A stretch of 64,000 bases of DNA, taken from contig NC_018946.1 of NCBI RefSeq assembly GCF_000304475.1, forward strand, positions 434,001 through 498,000. The letters run 5' to 3'. Position 1 is the stretch's first letter. Every line of letters begins with the position of its first letter. Source of the stretch: Kazachstania africana CBS 2517 (lineage: Eukaryota; Ascomycota; Saccharomycetes; Saccharomycetales; Saccharomycetaceae). The position numbers and the translations under genes were made by a program. This document shows positions 13,207-19,871 of the stretch, piece by piece. The notes beneath the pieces were generated by a model that was not told where the DNA came from, did not search any database, and was given only the letters and a program-made list of their open reading frames with translations.

Positions 13207-13575
13207 TGACACAATCTGCACTTGAAAATCACGTGCTTCTATCGTGCAGTCCTGTCGTACAATACTATGAACGCACATCTAAGTCGAGAACGAACGAAAC
13301 CCATTTTTGGATCTCTAATATTATTTTTTATAGATTTAGGTAAAGAGGACGGGACATTAGCCCACCAAAACCCAGGGCCTAAGTACCCACTTGGCTTGTA
13401 CTAGTCATTTCATATTATTTCCGAAAAGGGGAAATATTGATTTTTAACTTTGTAGTTTGATTCTGATTTCACACTTCATTTTTTTGGCATGCTACAACTA
13501 ACTCATATATCTTATTTTTTACTCAATGTCATCGATCAGCGGCTGCATAGGAGAGGAAAAGGCTATTGTCGGTTA
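13207..13575 (+). mobile_element. 5' LTR of a decayed Ty1/copia-type element
   Basis: The 3' part (13424-13575) is clearly homologous, though diverged, to the 152 bp LTR pieces at 16353-16504 and 18950-19101. It ends exactly where a primer-binding site begins. The gag start codon (13526) lies inside the LTR, as in Ty1. The 5' boundary is tentative: TGAC at 13207 would mirror the GGTCA terminus seen in the other copies and give a 369 bp LTR. It would begin 40 bp upstream of tRNA-Ala, a normal Ty target distance. Confidence 0.65.
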
Positions 13576-16330
13576 TGGTAGCACCTGGGTGTTTCTTCCA
13601 TTTTAAATGAAGCGAAGAGCTCTAAACAAGCTCCTTTCGAGAACAATTTTGAAAATGCCCCAAATGGAGTATCGATATGTTCAAACGGACCCAAATATGC
13701 CATTTATGCAACTATTCATGATGCCTACATCAAGACATACGATGTATTGTAATCCTCACCAGGATATGCTATCATATGGCGGCACTTTCGGCTTGGAAAT
13801 CAATTTATACATTGCAAGCCAAGGTGGGCGCAATATCAATATGGTTTTCCAATTCCAGGGAAACAATTGCCGGTGTGAGTTAAATCACGCCCCCCTTCTA
13901 ATCAACTACCAGGCATTGAGTTGGCGCCTGATACAAGGTCTTAGAAAAGTTCCATTCCAATCCTATCCAGTGGCCAAATGCCGGACTGTTACAGATATCT
14001 CATTTACACAGCATAGCAGTTGTAGTGAAAGTATGGCAGACCTTACTATGATCACAACTGTAGATGAGTTTGAGACATAGTTAAGAAAATTTTGCCGTTT
14101 CTTTTAGGAACGCAATTTAGGTCACACTATCCCAGATAAAAAAGGTTGTACTACTGGGGTATTAGACCGTGAAAGGGTGTGCATTACACAGACTTTCAAT
14201 TGTTTCATACCTACTAAATACCACACCAAGTGGTTCAAAGATATGCTATGTGTCCACCACTACGAACCATCCGATGTGATTATGAATGTCCTCAGTAAGA
14301 CAGACAGAAACGAACCGGGACAAGATATTTATGATGAATAAGCGAATGTCTCTTATGATGGAAAAATTGATGTTTTCGTCTTCAAAAAAAAATTCAACTT
14401 TAGTGAGAAAGGCTGTTGAACATGATCTTATGATCCCAGAGAAGATCATCGTCAAACGAATCGTTGACAACTTGAAGAGTCAATTTACTGTCAACGCTTT
14501 CTATCATTCCCGCATGGGGGAACTTTTACTAGATGACATTTTGGCTAGGATTAATTACTTGGCTACGGAAGTCATCATCAAATGTACTCCAGCTACTTCA
14601 GCTGAAGGCGTGAACTGTGGTTATTGTGACAAGATGGGATGTACTACAAATGTATGTCCTGACATCAAACTTTTGGAAGAATCCTCTGAATCTTCGAATA
14701 AGGCTTCTAGTAAAACGGCTGCTAAGACAACAAGTAAGGCTTCCACAACCTCGAAAAAGAAGGTCGCCATCTTCAAACGAAGACTGCAGATGATGCACAG
14801 TTTCTTCGACTTAATTGTGAATTGGAGACATATCTAAACGATTATGTCATTCTCGATTCCGGGGCTGTAGTTTCAGTCGTAAAAGATTCAAAATATATAT
14901 TTTGCAAAATTACGAATCCAATTGATAAATTATTCGGCTCTGGGAGCGAGGAACTACCCGTTGAAGCTTCCCGTACTATGGCTCAACAAGCAATCACACT
15001 CAATCCGAGTGCTTACACCTAAAGCTGCTACTTATAACCTAGTCATTTGGAATGCTTTTAGGAAAAGCGGAAGTAATCACTGATACCAGCGGAAGTCGTC
15101 TTATTTACAAATCAGATGAGGTCTTGGCTCCATTAGAAATGATTGGCCCGTATATGTGCATTCACATACACCAGCTGCTGCTTCATCTCGAAAGCAAGCA
15201 GATAAAACGTAATGACAAAAATTCTACTAGCAGAGTTCACAATTTCGTGTAAAAATTCTACAAGAATTTTTACATCGTATTTTGGTCACTTAAATTTCAA
15301 GGATATTCGCAAGTGGATAGAAAAAGGCATGATTCAGAATATCACTTCCGATAACATTGACTGGAGTGGAATTGGTAAGTTTCAATGCAAGGAATATCTA
15401 GCTGGTAAGAGGCGTCGCCACAAACACAGTTTTGATCACAGTTGAAGGATCAACAGTTTTATGAACCATTTCAGTATATCCATACTGATTCGTTTGGTCC
15501 AATGTCGGGTGTATAAGCCACTACTCCTATGTACTTTATTAGTTTCGTAGATTAAAATATTTGCTTTCGATGGGCAAATTGGCCACGAACTAAAAGTGCG
15601 GAACACATTTTATTAGTGTTCCCCAAGCTGGTGACTTTTATCAGAACACAGTTCTCAACGAGAGTGCAAGCCTTTCAAATGGACCATGATTTCGAGTATA
15701 GAAATGAGTTATTATATGTTTTCTTCATTGATAAAGGTATTAAATCAATTTACAATACCGCTGCTGACTCCGCTTCAAATGGTGTAGCTGAACGTACAAA
15801 CTTGTTGTGCCTGAATTACTGTCGTACATTACTCAAGGCTATAAATTTACCAAATAATATGCCGTATTACGCAGTCGAATCAGCTACTCTTATCAGAAAT
15901 ACGATGATAAATTCAAGTATAAATGACTCGCCACAAGCCAAGGCTGGTTTGGAAGGACCCGATATAAAAACTATTCTTCCACTTGGTCAAGAGGGGGTCG
16001 TTCATAGCCATGTCACAGGTAGCAGCTAGAGCCAAGGGGTGACTTCGGATTTGCCTTGTGTCCATCTAAGGGGTATTTTAGATATCTTCTATATATGCCT
16101 TCAAAGTACAAGGTGGTCGACACTGTGAATTATGCATTTGTCAAGTACTCCCCTGCCCTTGTAAACAATCAGGCTGCTATTGTATTTGCTTCCGTACTCA
16201 GTGACTGCAACAAGTTTATTCTTGAATCAATCAGTTCTGACGAAGTTGACAATCAAACTTGATTGTACCACCCCAGCACAGGAAGGGCTATCCTCATTGG
16301 GTCGTATCACCGAGGATATACCTTCAATTC
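13526..16330 (+). pseudogene. Decayed Ty1/copia gag-protease-integrase relic
   Basis: A broken Pseudoviridae element in several frames. Gag begins in the LTR at 13526 and stops within 30 codons. Later Gag pieces (13607-14080 and 14286-14837) end in a zinc-knuckle-like CX2CX4CX4C at about 14620-14660. A protease fragment has the DSGA active-site motif (about 14847). Integrase pieces follow: a zinc-binding HLNFKDIRKW...C region (15270-15400), then YEPFQYIHTDSFGP (first catalytic Asp, about 15480), QMDHDFEY (second Asp, about 15680) and NGVAERTN (Glu, about 15790), and finally an MPSKYKVVDTVNY segment close to Ty1. Reverse transcriptase and RNase H are missing: the relic stops where the inverted repeat starts. 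It cannot move on its own. Confidence 0.9.
13576..13585 (+). promoter_or_regulatory. Primer-binding site for initiator tRNA-Met
   Basis: TGGTAGCACC directly follows the LTR. The Ty1/Ty2 site is TGGTAGCGCC, complementary to the 3' end of initiator tRNA-Met including CCA; this copy differs at one base. Confidence 0.85.
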
Positions 16331-16352
16331 ATAGATGACAGATGGCGTACAT

Positions 16353-16504
16353 TGACCGATAGAAGTCTTTTCCTCTCTTGGGGTTTTGCTAATCGATGAC
16401 ATTATAGTAATAAATAAGATCTAAGAATTAGTTATAGTATACGAAACAAAAATAAAGTGTGAAATTCGAATTAAACCATACAGTAAAAACCAATATTCGT
16501 CTAA
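16353..16504 (-). mobile_element. LTR 3' portion (R-U5-like), inverted copy
   Basis: 152 bp homologous to 13424-13575 and 18950-19101, in the opposite orientation to the Ty relic it abuts. On the minus strand it runs from the A-run junction to the terminal GGTCA and includes the gag ATG (16402-16400). No primer-binding site follows, so it is joined to foreign sequence. Confidence 0.88.
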
Positions 16505-16662
16505 TTTTTTTTTTCATTCTAAAGTCATTATTTAAACTCCATATGGGTGCTCTGTTATATCATCCGCTTGCTGTCTCCATTCTTCGTATACAGGATTTTC
16601 GGCGACAGGCGACAGCATGCCTTGGCTGATATGGAATACTGCACTGTGGTATGAAAGCCATA

Positions 16663-17370
16663 CTAGCACCCGTAAGGTGATGTGAGTCCCCCACACCCAG
16701 ATGAGTAGCAGCTCCCACTGCCGGATGCTGCTGAGGTGACCAGCCACGTCGCCGCATTGGGCCCCACGACTAAGTTGCCGATCCATGTACCACCGTGCGT
16801 CATCTTGACTGTGTACGTGTCGCACAGGTCCCTATTGCCCATGTACTTATCGAATGCATATTCAAGTGAGCCCGCAATAGTCTTAGTGAGCGCTGTAGAG
16901 CTACAGTCGCCACTGTCTGCCCAGTATTTATAGTAGACACCATTGTAACTACCAGTAACCGGCCCACACTTGTCACCATGAACATAGTCATATATGACAG
17001 TTGCTATGGACCACCACAATGATACATTTTCGTATATAACCCTGCAGACCGTCTCAGTCAAAACTTCTGACAGACATGGCACGACGTCTGTACGCTTATC
17101 AAGGTTCGTGCCACTTGAAATAACGACAGTGTAGTTATCGGTACCCGCTGGATCAGGCAAGTATACGAATAACTCTGACGAGTACGTTTGGTTGCCTGAA
17201 CTCTCTGAGTCTGTAATGGTTGAGTTCGGACTGATGTCAGTCGTGGTAAGATACTTAGCTTGGACTTCTAAGGCCTGGTCAGGTCCCGCTACTATTCCTA
17301 GGGCAGCAGTTCGTTTAGTTACCTGAAATAACGCGATAGTTAACCAGCAAATAAACGACGATAGTTTCAT
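16663..17370 (-). CDS. Killer-preprotoxin-like secreted protein, copy 1
   Basis: A 235-residue protein, identical to copy 2 at 18082-18789. The open frame reaches 17418, but the first in-frame ATG is at 17370. It begins with a hydrophobic signal peptide (about residues 3-17) and has Lys-Arg Kex2-type sites at 19-20 and 92-93. A Ser/Thr-rich, N-glycosylation-rich segment lies between them, and the 142-residue C-terminal part has eight cysteines, enough for four disulfides. This is the architecture of yeast killer preprotoxins. The C-terminal region reminded me of KHS1-type proteins, but I cannot confirm a family. The frame is intact. The gene lies in a retrotransposon-associated inverted repeat, with base composition visibly more GC-rich than its neighbours, suggesting acquired origin. 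Confidence 0.65.
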   Translation of the reverse strand: MKLSSFICWLTIALFQVTKRTAALGIVAGPDQALEVQAKYLTTTDISPNSTITDSESSGNQTYSSELFVYLPDPAGTDNYTVVISSGTNLDKRTDVVPCLSEVLTETVCRVIYENVSLWWSIATVIYDYVHGDKCGPVTGSYNGVYYKYWADSGDCSSTALTKTIAGSLEYAFDKYMGNRDLCDTYTVKMTHGGTWIGNLVVGPNAATWLVTSAASGSGSCYSSGCGGLTSPYGC

Positions 17371-17602
17371 TAATAATAAATCTACTGAAGAGGTTAAAGG
17401 CCAGTAGATTAGGTACAATGACTAAGTAAATGAAAGTAGTTAAAAGTCGTCTACGCAGGGATGTTGGCATGTGTTTACTATCTTTCTATATACAGGGCGT
17501 CCTCAATAAAAGAGGAAAAGATGTTCTCTCGATGCTAGATAATGTCTATTTATACCTTATAAATTCATGACTCTTGTCAACGACATGATGAAAATTTTTC
17601 AC

Positions 17603-17670
17603 TTGTTGCTTGTCAGTTGTAAAATGTCGCGCGATATTGCATGTTGTTGCTTGTCAGTTGTAAAATGTCG
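17603..17670 (+). repeat. Two direct copies of a 27 bp repeat at the palindrome centre
   Basis: TTGTTGCTTGTCAGTTGTAA plus AATGTCG occurs at 17603-17629 and again at 17644-17670; an inverted copy is at 17823-17849. The second direct copy has no partner of its own, so the right-arm copy could pair with either one. Confidence 0.9.
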
Positions 17671-17801
17671 TATAGCCTCTTCGTATCCATACGAGCAACG
17701 AATCTTCTTGTTGTGGTAAATCGTTGTATTTACATCTTCATAGTTATTTACCAATCCATAATATTCTCGTCTATAAATATGTGTCACAGTATTACAGACT
17801 C
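17650..17801. other. Unpaired spacer at the centre of the inverted repeat
   Basis: About 150 bp of AT-rich unique sequence separating the two divergent toxin-like genes, flanked by GCATGTTGTTG and its inverse. It lies about 280 bp upstream of each start codon, so together with the inner arms it forms the shared promoter region. No coding frame is convincing. Confidence 0.8.
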
Positions 17802-18081
17802 AACAACATGCAATATATCGCACGACATTTTACAACTGACAAGCAACAAGTGAAAAATTTTCATCATGTCGTTGACAAGAGTCATGAATTTATAAGGTAT
17901 AAATAGACATTATCTAGCATCGAGAGAACATCTTTTCCTCTTTTATTGAGGACGCCCTGTATATAGAAAGATAGTAAACACATGCCAACATCCCTGCGTA
18001 GACGACTTTTAACTACTTTCATTTACTTAGTCATTGTACCTAATCTACTGGCCTTTAACCTCTTCAGTAGATTTATTATTA

Positions 18082-18789
18082 ATGAAACTATCGTCGTTTA
18101 TTTGCTGGTTAACTATCGCGTTATTTCAGGTAACTAAACGAACTGCTGCCCTAGGAATAGTAGCGGGACCTGACCAGGCCTTAGAAGTCCAAGCTAAGTA
18201 TCTTACCACGACTGACATCAGTCCGAACTCAACCATTACAGACTCAGAGAGTTCAGGCAACCAAACGTACTCGTCAGAGTTATTCGTATACTTGCCTGAT
18301 CCAGCGGGTACCGATAACTACACTGTCGTTATTTCAAGTGGCACGAACCTTGATAAGCGTACAGACGTCGTGCCATGTCTGTCAGAAGTTTTGACTGAGA
18401 CGGTCTGCAGGGTTATATACGAAAATGTATCATTGTGGTGGTCCATAGCAACTGTCATATATGACTATGTTCATGGTGACAAGTGTGGGCCGGTTACTGG
18501 TAGTTACAATGGTGTCTACTATAAATACTGGGCAGACAGTGGCGACTGTAGCTCTACAGCGCTCACTAAGACTATTGCGGGCTCACTTGAATATGCATTC
18601 GATAAGTACATGGGCAATAGGGACCTGTGCGACACGTACACAGTCAAGATGACGCACGGTGGTACATGGATCGGCAACTTAGTCGTGGGGCCCAATGCGG
18701 CGACGTGGCTGGTCACCTCAGCAGCATCCGGCAGTGGGAGCTGCTACTCATCTGGGTGTGGGGGACTCACATCACCTTACGGGTGCTAG
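18082..18789 (+). CDS. Killer-preprotoxin-like secreted protein, copy 2
   Basis: Same 235-residue product as the gene at 16663-17370, transcribed divergently from it. I compared the coding strand line by line across most of the reading frame and saw no synonymous change either. The start is set at the ATG at 18082 because the upstream extension to 18034 has no ATG. Features: signal peptide, dibasic sites at 19-20 and 92-93, several Asn-X-Ser/Thr sites, and eight Cys in the last 142 residues ending with a C-terminal Cys. A toxin or a toxin-immunity role is inferred from architecture only. The 3' flank ends in an A12 run joined to LTR sequence, unlike any resident gene in the window. Confidence 0.65.
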   Translation: MKLSSFICWLTIALFQVTKRTAALGIVAGPDQALEVQAKYLTTTDISPNSTITDSESSGNQTYSSELFVYLPDPAGTDNYTVVISSGTNLDKRTDVVPCLSEVLTETVCRVIYENVSLWWSIATVIYDYVHGDKCGPVTGSYNGVYYKYWADSGDCSSTALTKTIAGSLEYAFDKYMGNRDLCDTYTVKMTHGGTWIGNLVVGPNAATWLVTSAASGSGSCYSSGCGGLTSPYGC

Positions 18790-18937
18790 TATGGCTTTCA
18801 TACCACAGTGCAGTATTCCATATCAGCCAAGGCATGCTGTCGCCTGTCGCCGAAAATCCTGTATACGAAGCATGGAGACAGCAAGCGGATGATATAACAG
18901 AGCACCTATATGGAGTTTAAATAATGACTTTAAAATG

Positions 18938-18949
18938 AAAAAAAAAAAA
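18938..18949 (+). other. A12 run at the junction of toxin-gene 3' region and LTR
   Basis: A dozen A residues (ten in the left arm at 16505-16514) lie exactly between the gene's 3' flank and the LTR segment, as expected for a copied poly(A) tail or A-rich RNA end. Confidence 0.8.
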
Positions 18950-19101
18950 TTAGACGAATATTGGTTTTTACTGTATGGTTTAATTCAAATTTCACACTTT
19001 ATTTTTGTTTCGTATACTATAACTAATTCTTAGATCTTATTTATTACTGCAATGTCATCGATTAGCAACACCCCAAGAGAGGAAAAGACTTCTATCGGTC
19101 A
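18950..19101 (+). mobile_element. LTR 3' portion (R-U5-like), direct copy
   Basis: 152 bp matching 13424-13575, ending at GGTCA with the embedded gag start (ATG at 19052, then about 17 Gag codons). It lacks the U3 part and is not followed by a primer-binding site. Confidence 0.88.
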
Positions 19102-19205
19102 CGAAAGGATCTCTGGACAAGTCTGCAACGCTGTTGCATTATGTTCGGAACTAATTTTATGTATTGCTTAGGGTTATATCGTCCTTATGAAAACATCAAA
19201 TTATT

Positions 19206-19306
19206 GAAGCGGTGGCTCAATGGTAGAGCTTTCGACTCCAGTTAAAATCTGGAACTTCCGGAAAATTGCAATCGAAGGGTTGCAGGTTCAATTCCTGTCC
19301 GTTTCA
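19206..19306 (+). tRNA. tRNA-Trp (CCA) with intron
   Basis: Exons 19206-19241 and 19271-19306 with a 29-nt intron (19242-19270) just 3' of the anticodon, the usual position in fungal tRNA-Trp. The spliced tRNA is 72 nt. Anticodon CCA sits in TTCGACTCCA and the T arm is GGTTCAATTCC. Base 37 is G, where I recall A in S. cerevisiae. A seven-T terminator is at 19310-19316. Confidence 0.95.
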
Positions 19307-19871
19307 AAATTTTTTTACGTATTTTTTTTGCCACTGAAATCAGTATATATGAGTAAATGGACTAATAGAATTTGAAATATACATATATGAGGTCCAATCT
19401 ACTTACTTAGCACGGAGAGTTTCTCAGCTTTGTCCCATTGAGGATCGTAATACCACTGAAACCTTGAAAAGATAGTATTCATTAACGGCGAAGTCCTGTA
19501 ATGTATACAAAGCGAGTTATTTGCAGCAATAGACGATTCTTTCACTATTGCACTCGCTGATTTACACAAACAGTACAGATGATACAACTGTCTTCTAGTC
19601 ATTGCTTGGGAATGCATATACTACTTTCACTATCACTACTTGTCTACTATAAGTATATACATTTTTTCCCTCAATATTAAATGGTTTAAACGTATCAAAT
19701 TTCATTTAATATAAGCGAAACCGAATAATTAATCGATCAACAAACCCTTATTTATTTGTTTGATTTGTTCATTTAATGATAGAACCAAGGGAACATTATA
19801 AGGAATTCTCTATCTCCAGTGTGAACTGATTGCAAAGGAACTGTGAAAACAATCAATAAAGTAATTGTACT
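19307..19871. other. Intergenic region upstream of OM14
   Basis: Contains the tRNA-Trp terminator and the OM14 promoter. A 72-codon frame on the minus strand (19399-19617) matches nothing I know and is not called. Confidence 0.6.

Follow-up and report, generated by a model that had tools for sequence, protein, structure and literature searches.

Toxin-like genes inside Ty LTRs of Kazachstania africana, often at the presumed RNA start, suggest that Ty reverse transcriptase repeatedly copied toxin RNAs behind its own promoter

The window, a stretch of 64,000 nucleotides from Kazachstania africana CBS 2517 (NC_018946.1, positions 434,001 to 498,000), holds two copies of one unit in inverted orientation, at about 16353-17807 on the minus strand and 17815-19101 on the plus strand, in each of which a toxin-like gene sits within an LTR. 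Loci in the source genome, which comprises 11.13 Mb in 12 contigs, are named here by contig and kilobase, C7 being the contig with the window. The right copy begins on the plus strand with the U3 of a 5'-truncated LTR (17815-17969). This U3, which has come to lie upstream of the toxin gene, carries TATAAATA at 17898 and is 89% identical to the corresponding stretch at C7:621k and 71-93% identical to other partial matches outside the window. The 5' junction, TATATAGAAAGATAG (17960-17974, plus), consists of the end of U3 and the first bases of R, after which the cargo begins, and by eye it can be likened to empty LTRs such as TATATAGAAAAAGATTAGGACG. The cargo comprises a toxin-like precursor of 235 aa (18082-18789, plus), a small upstream ORF of 51 aa that overlaps its start in another frame (17982-18137, plus), and an untranslated part between the stop codon and the A-run (18790-18937, plus). 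A run of 12 A (18938-18949, plus), made up of native LTR A's and probably poly(A) of the cargo, forms the 3' junction; the longest match of another LTR begins at 18927, within A-rich sequence. The remainder of R and U5 follows (18950-19101, plus), with a gag-type ATG at 19052 and the terminal GGTCA. On the minus strand the left copy has a U3 that reaches the LTR start TGTTG (17486-17807), a toxin-like gene whose ORF is identical to that of the right copy (16663-17370), a run of 10 A that reads as T (16505-16514), and an R-U5 (16353-16504). An intron-containing tRNA gene lies about 100 bp past the right LTR end (19205-19307, plus); ARAGORN calls it Gly (ccc), and by its sequence we take it to be probably a Trp gene.

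In both arms, then, the gene region ends in an A-run followed by 152 bp of R-U5 with the terminal GGTCA, as the original prediction had said. It had also matched these 152 bp, down to the terminal GGTCA, to the LTR at 13424-13575, and here the agreement is looser: that copy ends in GGTTA and is 78% identical to the R-U5 of the arms over 143 bp. The prediction had missed the U3 half, at about 17815-17969 in the right arm and longer in the left. Because the upstream region is U3 of the same LTR type, the gene interrupts a single LTR at U3/R. A plain product of the form mRNA-A(n)-R-U5, which had been proposed, is thus discarded, since U3 stands directly before the gene and its presence calls for another switch, back into Ty sequence.

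The matching parts of the arms (16353-17637, minus, and 17815-19101, plus) enclose a loop of 177 bp. The inner 1048 bp (17823-18870) are identical between them, and the differences outside this block amount to eight substitutions, one at 17822 and seven distal, plus the 2-bp difference in the A-run. If substitutions were evenly spread, the chance that all eight would fall outside the block is about 1e-6, for a block chosen post hoc. Gene conversion and a collapsed assembly explain the identical inner arms equally well, and we therefore do not take them as proof of a very recent duplication. The inverted repeat as a whole (16353-19101) is a possible palindrome hotspot or assembly collapse, and by eye the left-copy U3 contains a direct repeat of about 25 bp, TTGTTGCTTGTCAGTTGTAAAATGTCG, near the palindrome centre (17605-17670).

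Upstream of the unit lies a degenerate Ty (13423-16352, plus) with an R-U5 that runs to 13575, a PBS-like TGGTAGCACC at 13576, and internal remnants. It is 79% identical to a Ty at C2:1376798-1379666, whose open frame matches the Pfam families TYA (E 9e-20), SH3_retrovirus (4e-8) and rve (1.2e-7; 32.4 bits against a cut-off of 32.6); three ORFs of the window copy scanned with Pfam show no Ty domain. In the C2 element the gag ATG lies inside the LTR, which ends in GGTCA and is directly followed by TGGTAGCGCC, presumably a match to the primer binding site for initiator-Met tRNA. With TYA and integrase domains, a gag ATG in the LTR and a primer binding site after it, the element that holds the cargo appears to be of the Ty1/copia type. 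Its empty LTRs have sequences such as TATATAG-A(n)-GA(T/C)AG-GACGAATATTGG. The R-U5 stretch has at least 20 matches in the genome, both window arms included, and among eight loci read around the best A-run/R-U5 matches, four empty LTRs (C3:565k, C2:1375k, C2:1082k and C3:1180k) have their R-U5 preceded by a U3 that resembles the stretch upstream of the toxin gene. We refer to this LTR type as alpha. A remnant of a second, beta type (13280-13403, plus) is 75% identical over 127 bp to an empty beta copy at C5:615347-616942 and stands about 20 bp upstream of the alpha R-U5 of the window Ty (13423-13575); since the two adjoin, beta may be a U3 variant rather than a separate element.

We used the right-copy U3 (17815-17972) as a query against the genome and obtained 24 matches at 23 places; our searches score the best candidates only, so that all place counts given here are lower bounds. 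Ten of the 23 places lead, from U3 or from U3 with a 5' leader, into a killer-toxin-like gene. They represent nine loci, the window having two copies: besides the window these are C7:621k, C3:1213k, C11:206k, C12:89k, C12:91k, C8:676k, C8:678k and C4:175k. Eleven places continue into native R, one of them (C4:807k) with a 475-bp insertion of unassigned sequence higher up in U3; one is truncated (C2:1376k), and one with partly masked sequence was set aside. Among the 22 places read, the cargo was toxin-like in all ten filled LTRs, and we saw no gene of another kind immediately after an alpha U3. Looking upstream from R-U5 instead (20 places), we found toxin cargo at five (both window copies, C7:621k, C3:1213k and C2:1302k), native U3 at nine, an inverted U3 tip at three (two of these next to the toxin genes of C2:625k), a truncated R-U5 at two, and the beta remnant of the window Ty at one.

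The beta U3 occurs at five or more places: three carry a toxin gene, a fourth is empty, and the last is a short match (C2:246707, 67 bp, truncated, with no toxin within the 1.4 kb read). Thus three more toxin genes, at C5:615k, C4:968k and C2:1302k, stand behind a U3 of this type. At C5:615300-617300 there are two beta U3s, identical over 142 bp, of which the first leads into a toxin-like ORF of 314 aa and the second into native sequence, so that C5:615347-616942 presents a natural pair of filled and empty beta U3s side by side. At C4:968k a beta LTR is split by a toxin gene close to where the filled C5 copy is cut, homology to the empty LTR reaching position 163 and resuming at 145. At C2:1302k a beta U3 is followed by an ORF of 331 aa, seven A's and an alpha R-U5, and the halves therefore come from two LTR types. 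A different repeat of about 200 bp (C4:967449-967660) lies directly upstream of the C4:968k beta U3; it recurs at about 20 places with 67-89% identity, and these places, which match just the first 211 bases of the query used in the beta search, are kept outside the beta count.

BLAST places LTR sequence on both sides of the toxin gene at five loci (window, C7:621k, C3:1213k, C4:968k and C4:175k), with the last 38 bp of the LTR reappearing after the C4:175k toxin at 89% identity. After the C8:678k toxin, the stretch A9-GACTA...GTCA resembles an LTR end by eye only, and in the stretches read at C11, C12:89k, C12:91k, C8:676k and C5 there is an upstream LTR half alone. The toxin is in the sense of U3 in all 13 U3-toxin fusions read. 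A tRNA gene lies in the stretch read at four of 11 toxin loci (C7:621k, C3:1213k, C4:968k and C11:206k) and at all six empty-LTR loci scanned; in stretches of 2-3 kb at C12:89k, C5, C4:175k, C8:676k, C8:678k, C2:625k and C2:1302k none was found.

To locate the breaks we took as a ruler the empty alpha LTR at C8:610k, which is 459 bp long and has the R-start G at position 304. We place the R start there, with some caution, by the position of the A-run and its distance from the TATA; in the window the corresponding distance, from TATAAATA at 17898 to the junction G at 17966, is a usual TATA-to-start spacing for yeast. U3 homology stops at ruler position 307 in both window copies, 309 at C7:621k, 310 at C3:1213k (where U3 is internally rearranged, with an inverted piece), 309 at C11:206k and 315 at C12:89k. 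LTR homology resumes at 305 in both window copies and at C7:621k, and at 312 at C3:1213k and C2:1302k. Four filled LTRs break later, at 343 (C12:91k), 328 (C8:676k), 398 (C8:678k) and 423 (C4:175k), and in the last three of these the toxin ATG stands, by eye, at about the position of the gag ATG of the empty LTR. Also by eye, the first bases of R, GAAAnAT(T)AG, precede the cargo, and TTAG, GACAG or GAGTAG follows the A-run. Possible target-site repeats flank the C3 locus (ACAAC/ACAAC, five of five bases, if a loss of 2 bp from the LTR tip is allowed) and C7:621k (CCTTT/CCTTC, four of five); those of the window are ambiguous.

The original prediction had named an A-run native to the LTR as an objection to its reading, and this applies in part. 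In the 12 empty LTR copies scored, which include C2:1375k with two and C11:24k with eight, the R start holds 2-8 A's, while runs of 12 (right arm; 10 in the left), 16, 9 and 7 stand at the four distinct filled junctions. Three of the four are longer than every native copy scored (p about 0.006, with small numbers), and the fourth is within the native range. Since empty LTRs hold A's at this point too, part of the run is native R, and another part is probably poly(A). The proposed switch of strong-stop DNA onto an A-rich RNA agrees with a 3' junction that falls at the presumed R start and recurs, joined to other toxin-like genes, at C7:621k, C3:1213k and C2:1302k.

The cargo belongs to two protein families. 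The 235-aa window protein begins with a hydrophobic stretch, carries KR at residues 19 and 92 together with nine Cys, and has, at residues 88-205, a DUF6736 domain, a Pfam family without assigned function for which our literature search found no paper. Family A comprises the proteins of the window (E 1.9e-20), C7:621k (4e-25) and C4:968k (2.4e-24) and, weakly, of C5 (4e-4) and C2:1302k (1.7e-5), the last two being below the curated cut-off. In the four proteins aligned the Cys pattern of the Cys-rich part is conserved, and this part is preceded by KR in three and by ER in the fourth. Family B (C11, the two C12 loci, the two C8 loci, C3, C4:175k and C2:625k) is held together by mutual tblastn matches, and five of its ORFs or ORF pieces scanned gave no Pfam match. 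The longer open frames are those of the window and C7:621k (235 and 251 aa), C12:89k (285), C8:678k (279), C4:175k (298), C4:968k (245), C5 (314) and C2:1302k (331), and the genes at C3, C11, C12:91k and C8:676k appear broken, with short frames. With a putative secretion signal (by eye), a dibasic Kex2-type site and a Cys-rich mature part, the precursors have the features of killer-toxin precursors, and from this architecture we infer that the cargo encodes killer toxins and predict toxin activity.

A search of protein databases with the window toxin returned the query itself alone, a PDB sequence search gave no credible match, and the viral contigs scanned, a collection from which fungal dsRNA satellites may be missing, contained no relative. 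Arms aside, the best of eight matches in the genome is 42-43% identical, so that no resident gene found here is a recent source; a satellite, a lost gene and another strain are all candidate sources of the toxin RNA. At four places close to contig ends (C10:9k, C6:17k, C12:7.6k and C3:13k) a family-A relative stands with neither LTR type beside it, and toxin genes thus exist outside LTRs as well. An ORF of 50-67 aa overlaps the toxin ORF start in another frame in the window and at C7:621k, C10 and C6. Those of C10 and C6 are 79% identical and those of C10 and C7:621k resemble each other (36% over 33 aa, E 5e-4), and that of the window (17982-18137) has no detectable similarity to the other three. 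By eye the product could be membrane-spanning, and it might be an immunity factor.

As far as can be read from the assembly itself, toxin-like genes split LTRs, the breaks have definite positions, the arrangement recurs and the cargo has been exchanged. We consider it probable that the structures, U3-toxin-A(n)-R-U5, arose by two template switches during Ty reverse transcription and involved several toxin RNAs. Ty reverse transcriptase primed at the PBS would copy U5 and R to the 5' end of the Ty RNA, leaving an oligo-T opposite GAAAAAA. This strong-stop DNA would then pair not with the R at the Ty 3' end but with poly(A) in a toxin RNA, and the A-run would lengthen. After the toxin RNA had been copied to its own 5' end, we postulate a second switch, back into R/U3 at the 3' end of Ty RNA, the usual landing site. 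Had R anchored both switches, its bases would lie on both sides of the cargo. Synthesis of the plus strand, starting at the polypurine tract, would give U3-toxin-A(n)-R-U5 whose ends are those of a proper LTR, so that integrase could insert it as a filled LTR, and the toxin would end up behind the Ty promoter in U3, from which it would presumably be transcribed. Such events would have been repeated with different toxin RNAs. A variant, perhaps with a switch at the AAAA of U5, could account for the toxins that lie within the LTR near the start codon of gag.

A less likely explanation, although the strongest of the alternatives, is that toxin cDNA made by Ty or another reverse transcriptase was inserted into chromosomal LTRs by break repair or by integrase, the A-rich R start being preferred because the T-run of the cDNA can pair there. 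The first bases of R on both sides of the cargo (by eye) would then look like a target duplication, and empty LTRs with the same U3 do occur. However, integrase insertion gives 5-bp target duplications, and the repeated stretch measures about 11 bp. The breaks at five loci fall within 12 bp (304-315) of an LTR 459 bp long although their cargoes are mostly unlike, the cuts in the beta LTR likewise lie near one point, and insertion of this kind does not readily account for the common sense of toxin and U3 in every one of the fusions read.

We regard it as improbable that one ancient toxin-in-LTR element transposed, its toxin diverging fast while the LTR halves were homogenised by gene conversion. 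The window and C7:621k do share the 5' junction GAAANATAGTAAA, and the ORFs of two pairs of loci are clearly related. However, when the last 120 nt of U3 and the ORFs are compared at the nucleotide level, the two parts disagree. The window and C7:621k are 89.8% identical in U3 and 49.2% in the ORF, and C12:89k and C12:91k 90.8% and 47.2%; the pattern is reversed for C11 and C12:89k (73.3% and 77.4%) and for C8:676k and C8:678k (77.1% and 90.0%). The remaining ORF pairs are at 39.8-48.2%, a range where alignment says little. Two pairs in which U3 is about 90% and the cargo less than 50% identical imply that toxins were captured several times, and one unit diverging as a whole would not easily yield both patterns, whereas unlike cargoes behind similar U3s, and similar cargoes behind unlike U3s, would. 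Moreover, the cargo falls into two protein families and the U3s into two types. On these pairwise identities we reject a single ancestral capture as the main explanation. Least probable of all is that resident toxin genes gained Ty promoters from adjacent or recombined solo LTRs, with no toxin RNA intermediate: LTR-free relatives near contig ends and the five loci with an upstream LTR half alone would suit it, but the halves at the window, C7:621k and C3:1213k are co-oriented, the second picking up within a few bp of the point at which the first stops, and there are A-runs at the junction.

Derr et al. in 1991 and Maxwell and Curcio in 2007 are said to have described retrosequences and processed pseudogenes made by Ty1. 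In the part available to us, PMC7175516 states that retrosequences arise now and then when Ty1 copies cellular RNAs, and that coding sequences may thereby gain other promoters. The copying of a cellular RNA by Ty reverse transcriptase is common to those cases and, on the two-switch reading, to ours; the present ones are natural, repeated, toxin-like at every filled site read, and inside the LTR, often at U3/R. According to the accessible portion of PMC12691639, KTA2, a K62-like killer gene of S. cerevisiae Y55, lies near a tRNA gene and is flanked by LTRs, and retrotransposition was proposed. That is one LTR-flanked gene, whereas here single LTRs are split by a gene at several loci with located breakpoints. 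Retrogenes made by Ty and a single killer gene between LTRs are therefore already in the literature.

The KKT killer genes of K. africana have GAAAAA close to their start codons, and on the strength of this motif PMC7888664, as far as excerpts go, suggests that a retrotransposon captured them by reverse transcription. That paper takes GAAAAA as the mark of a dsRNA satellite, and its main text mentions neither LTR nor long terminal repeat, whereas the GAAAAA-like starts seen here match the R start of empty LTRs. GAAAAA beside the start codon of a killer gene may thus come from an LTR instead of marking a satellite, and should be read with caution. Many satellite dsRNAs are reported to start with GAAAAA and to have a central poly(A) (PMC7888664, in part), and as the R start is alike, both switches, of oligo-T onto poly(A) and of the satellite 5' end onto the 3' R of Ty, would be favoured if the toxin RNA were such a satellite. 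PMC12875307 describes Ksino-like genes from K. africana, and by the descriptions in the excerpted text the Ksino and Klus toxins resemble the present proteins in size, signal sequence and KR site. The available part of PMC2805616 deals with totivirus-derived genes, does not mention Ty1 or LTRs, and cites Geuking et al. (2009) on recombination between retrotransposons and RNA viruses; LTR appears once in PMC10542562, on another matter, and not in PMC13404059. Among the matches listed by our literature search, which covered papers free of subscription and without their supplements, none described toxin genes that sit within an LTR at U3/R.

By what route killer genes move from dsRNA satellites to chromosomes or back is a standing question, for which reverse transcription by retrotransposons has already been proposed; in those portions of the prior work that we could consult, we found no base-level junctions for such a capture. 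The present genome offers junctions at several loci near the predicted base, together with empty LTRs of the same type, and would be a natural case of retroelements arming their host. More tentatively, and with considerable doubt, one may ask whether the Ty LTRs of this yeast are a standing device for the capture and expression of killer toxins. If so, a toxin would join an LTR, be transcribed from the Ty promoter and be able to move with the Ty, and killer genes would have in Ty another vehicle alongside dsRNA satellites.

Two further arrangements were seen. At C2:625019-626018 two tandem R-U5 copies, 837 bp apart, are each joined to an inverted U3 tip, slightly upstream of the R start, and a family-B toxin gene follows; these are head-to-head LTR junctions, and a similar inverted tip without a toxin match occurs at C11:22884. 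The stretch at C12:89043-92000 seems to be a single deleted Ty in which the U3 of each LTR precedes a different family-B toxin, the first an open frame of 285 aa and the second broken; by eye only, its middle resembles the terminal part of Ty pol, and Pfam found nothing in two frames there.
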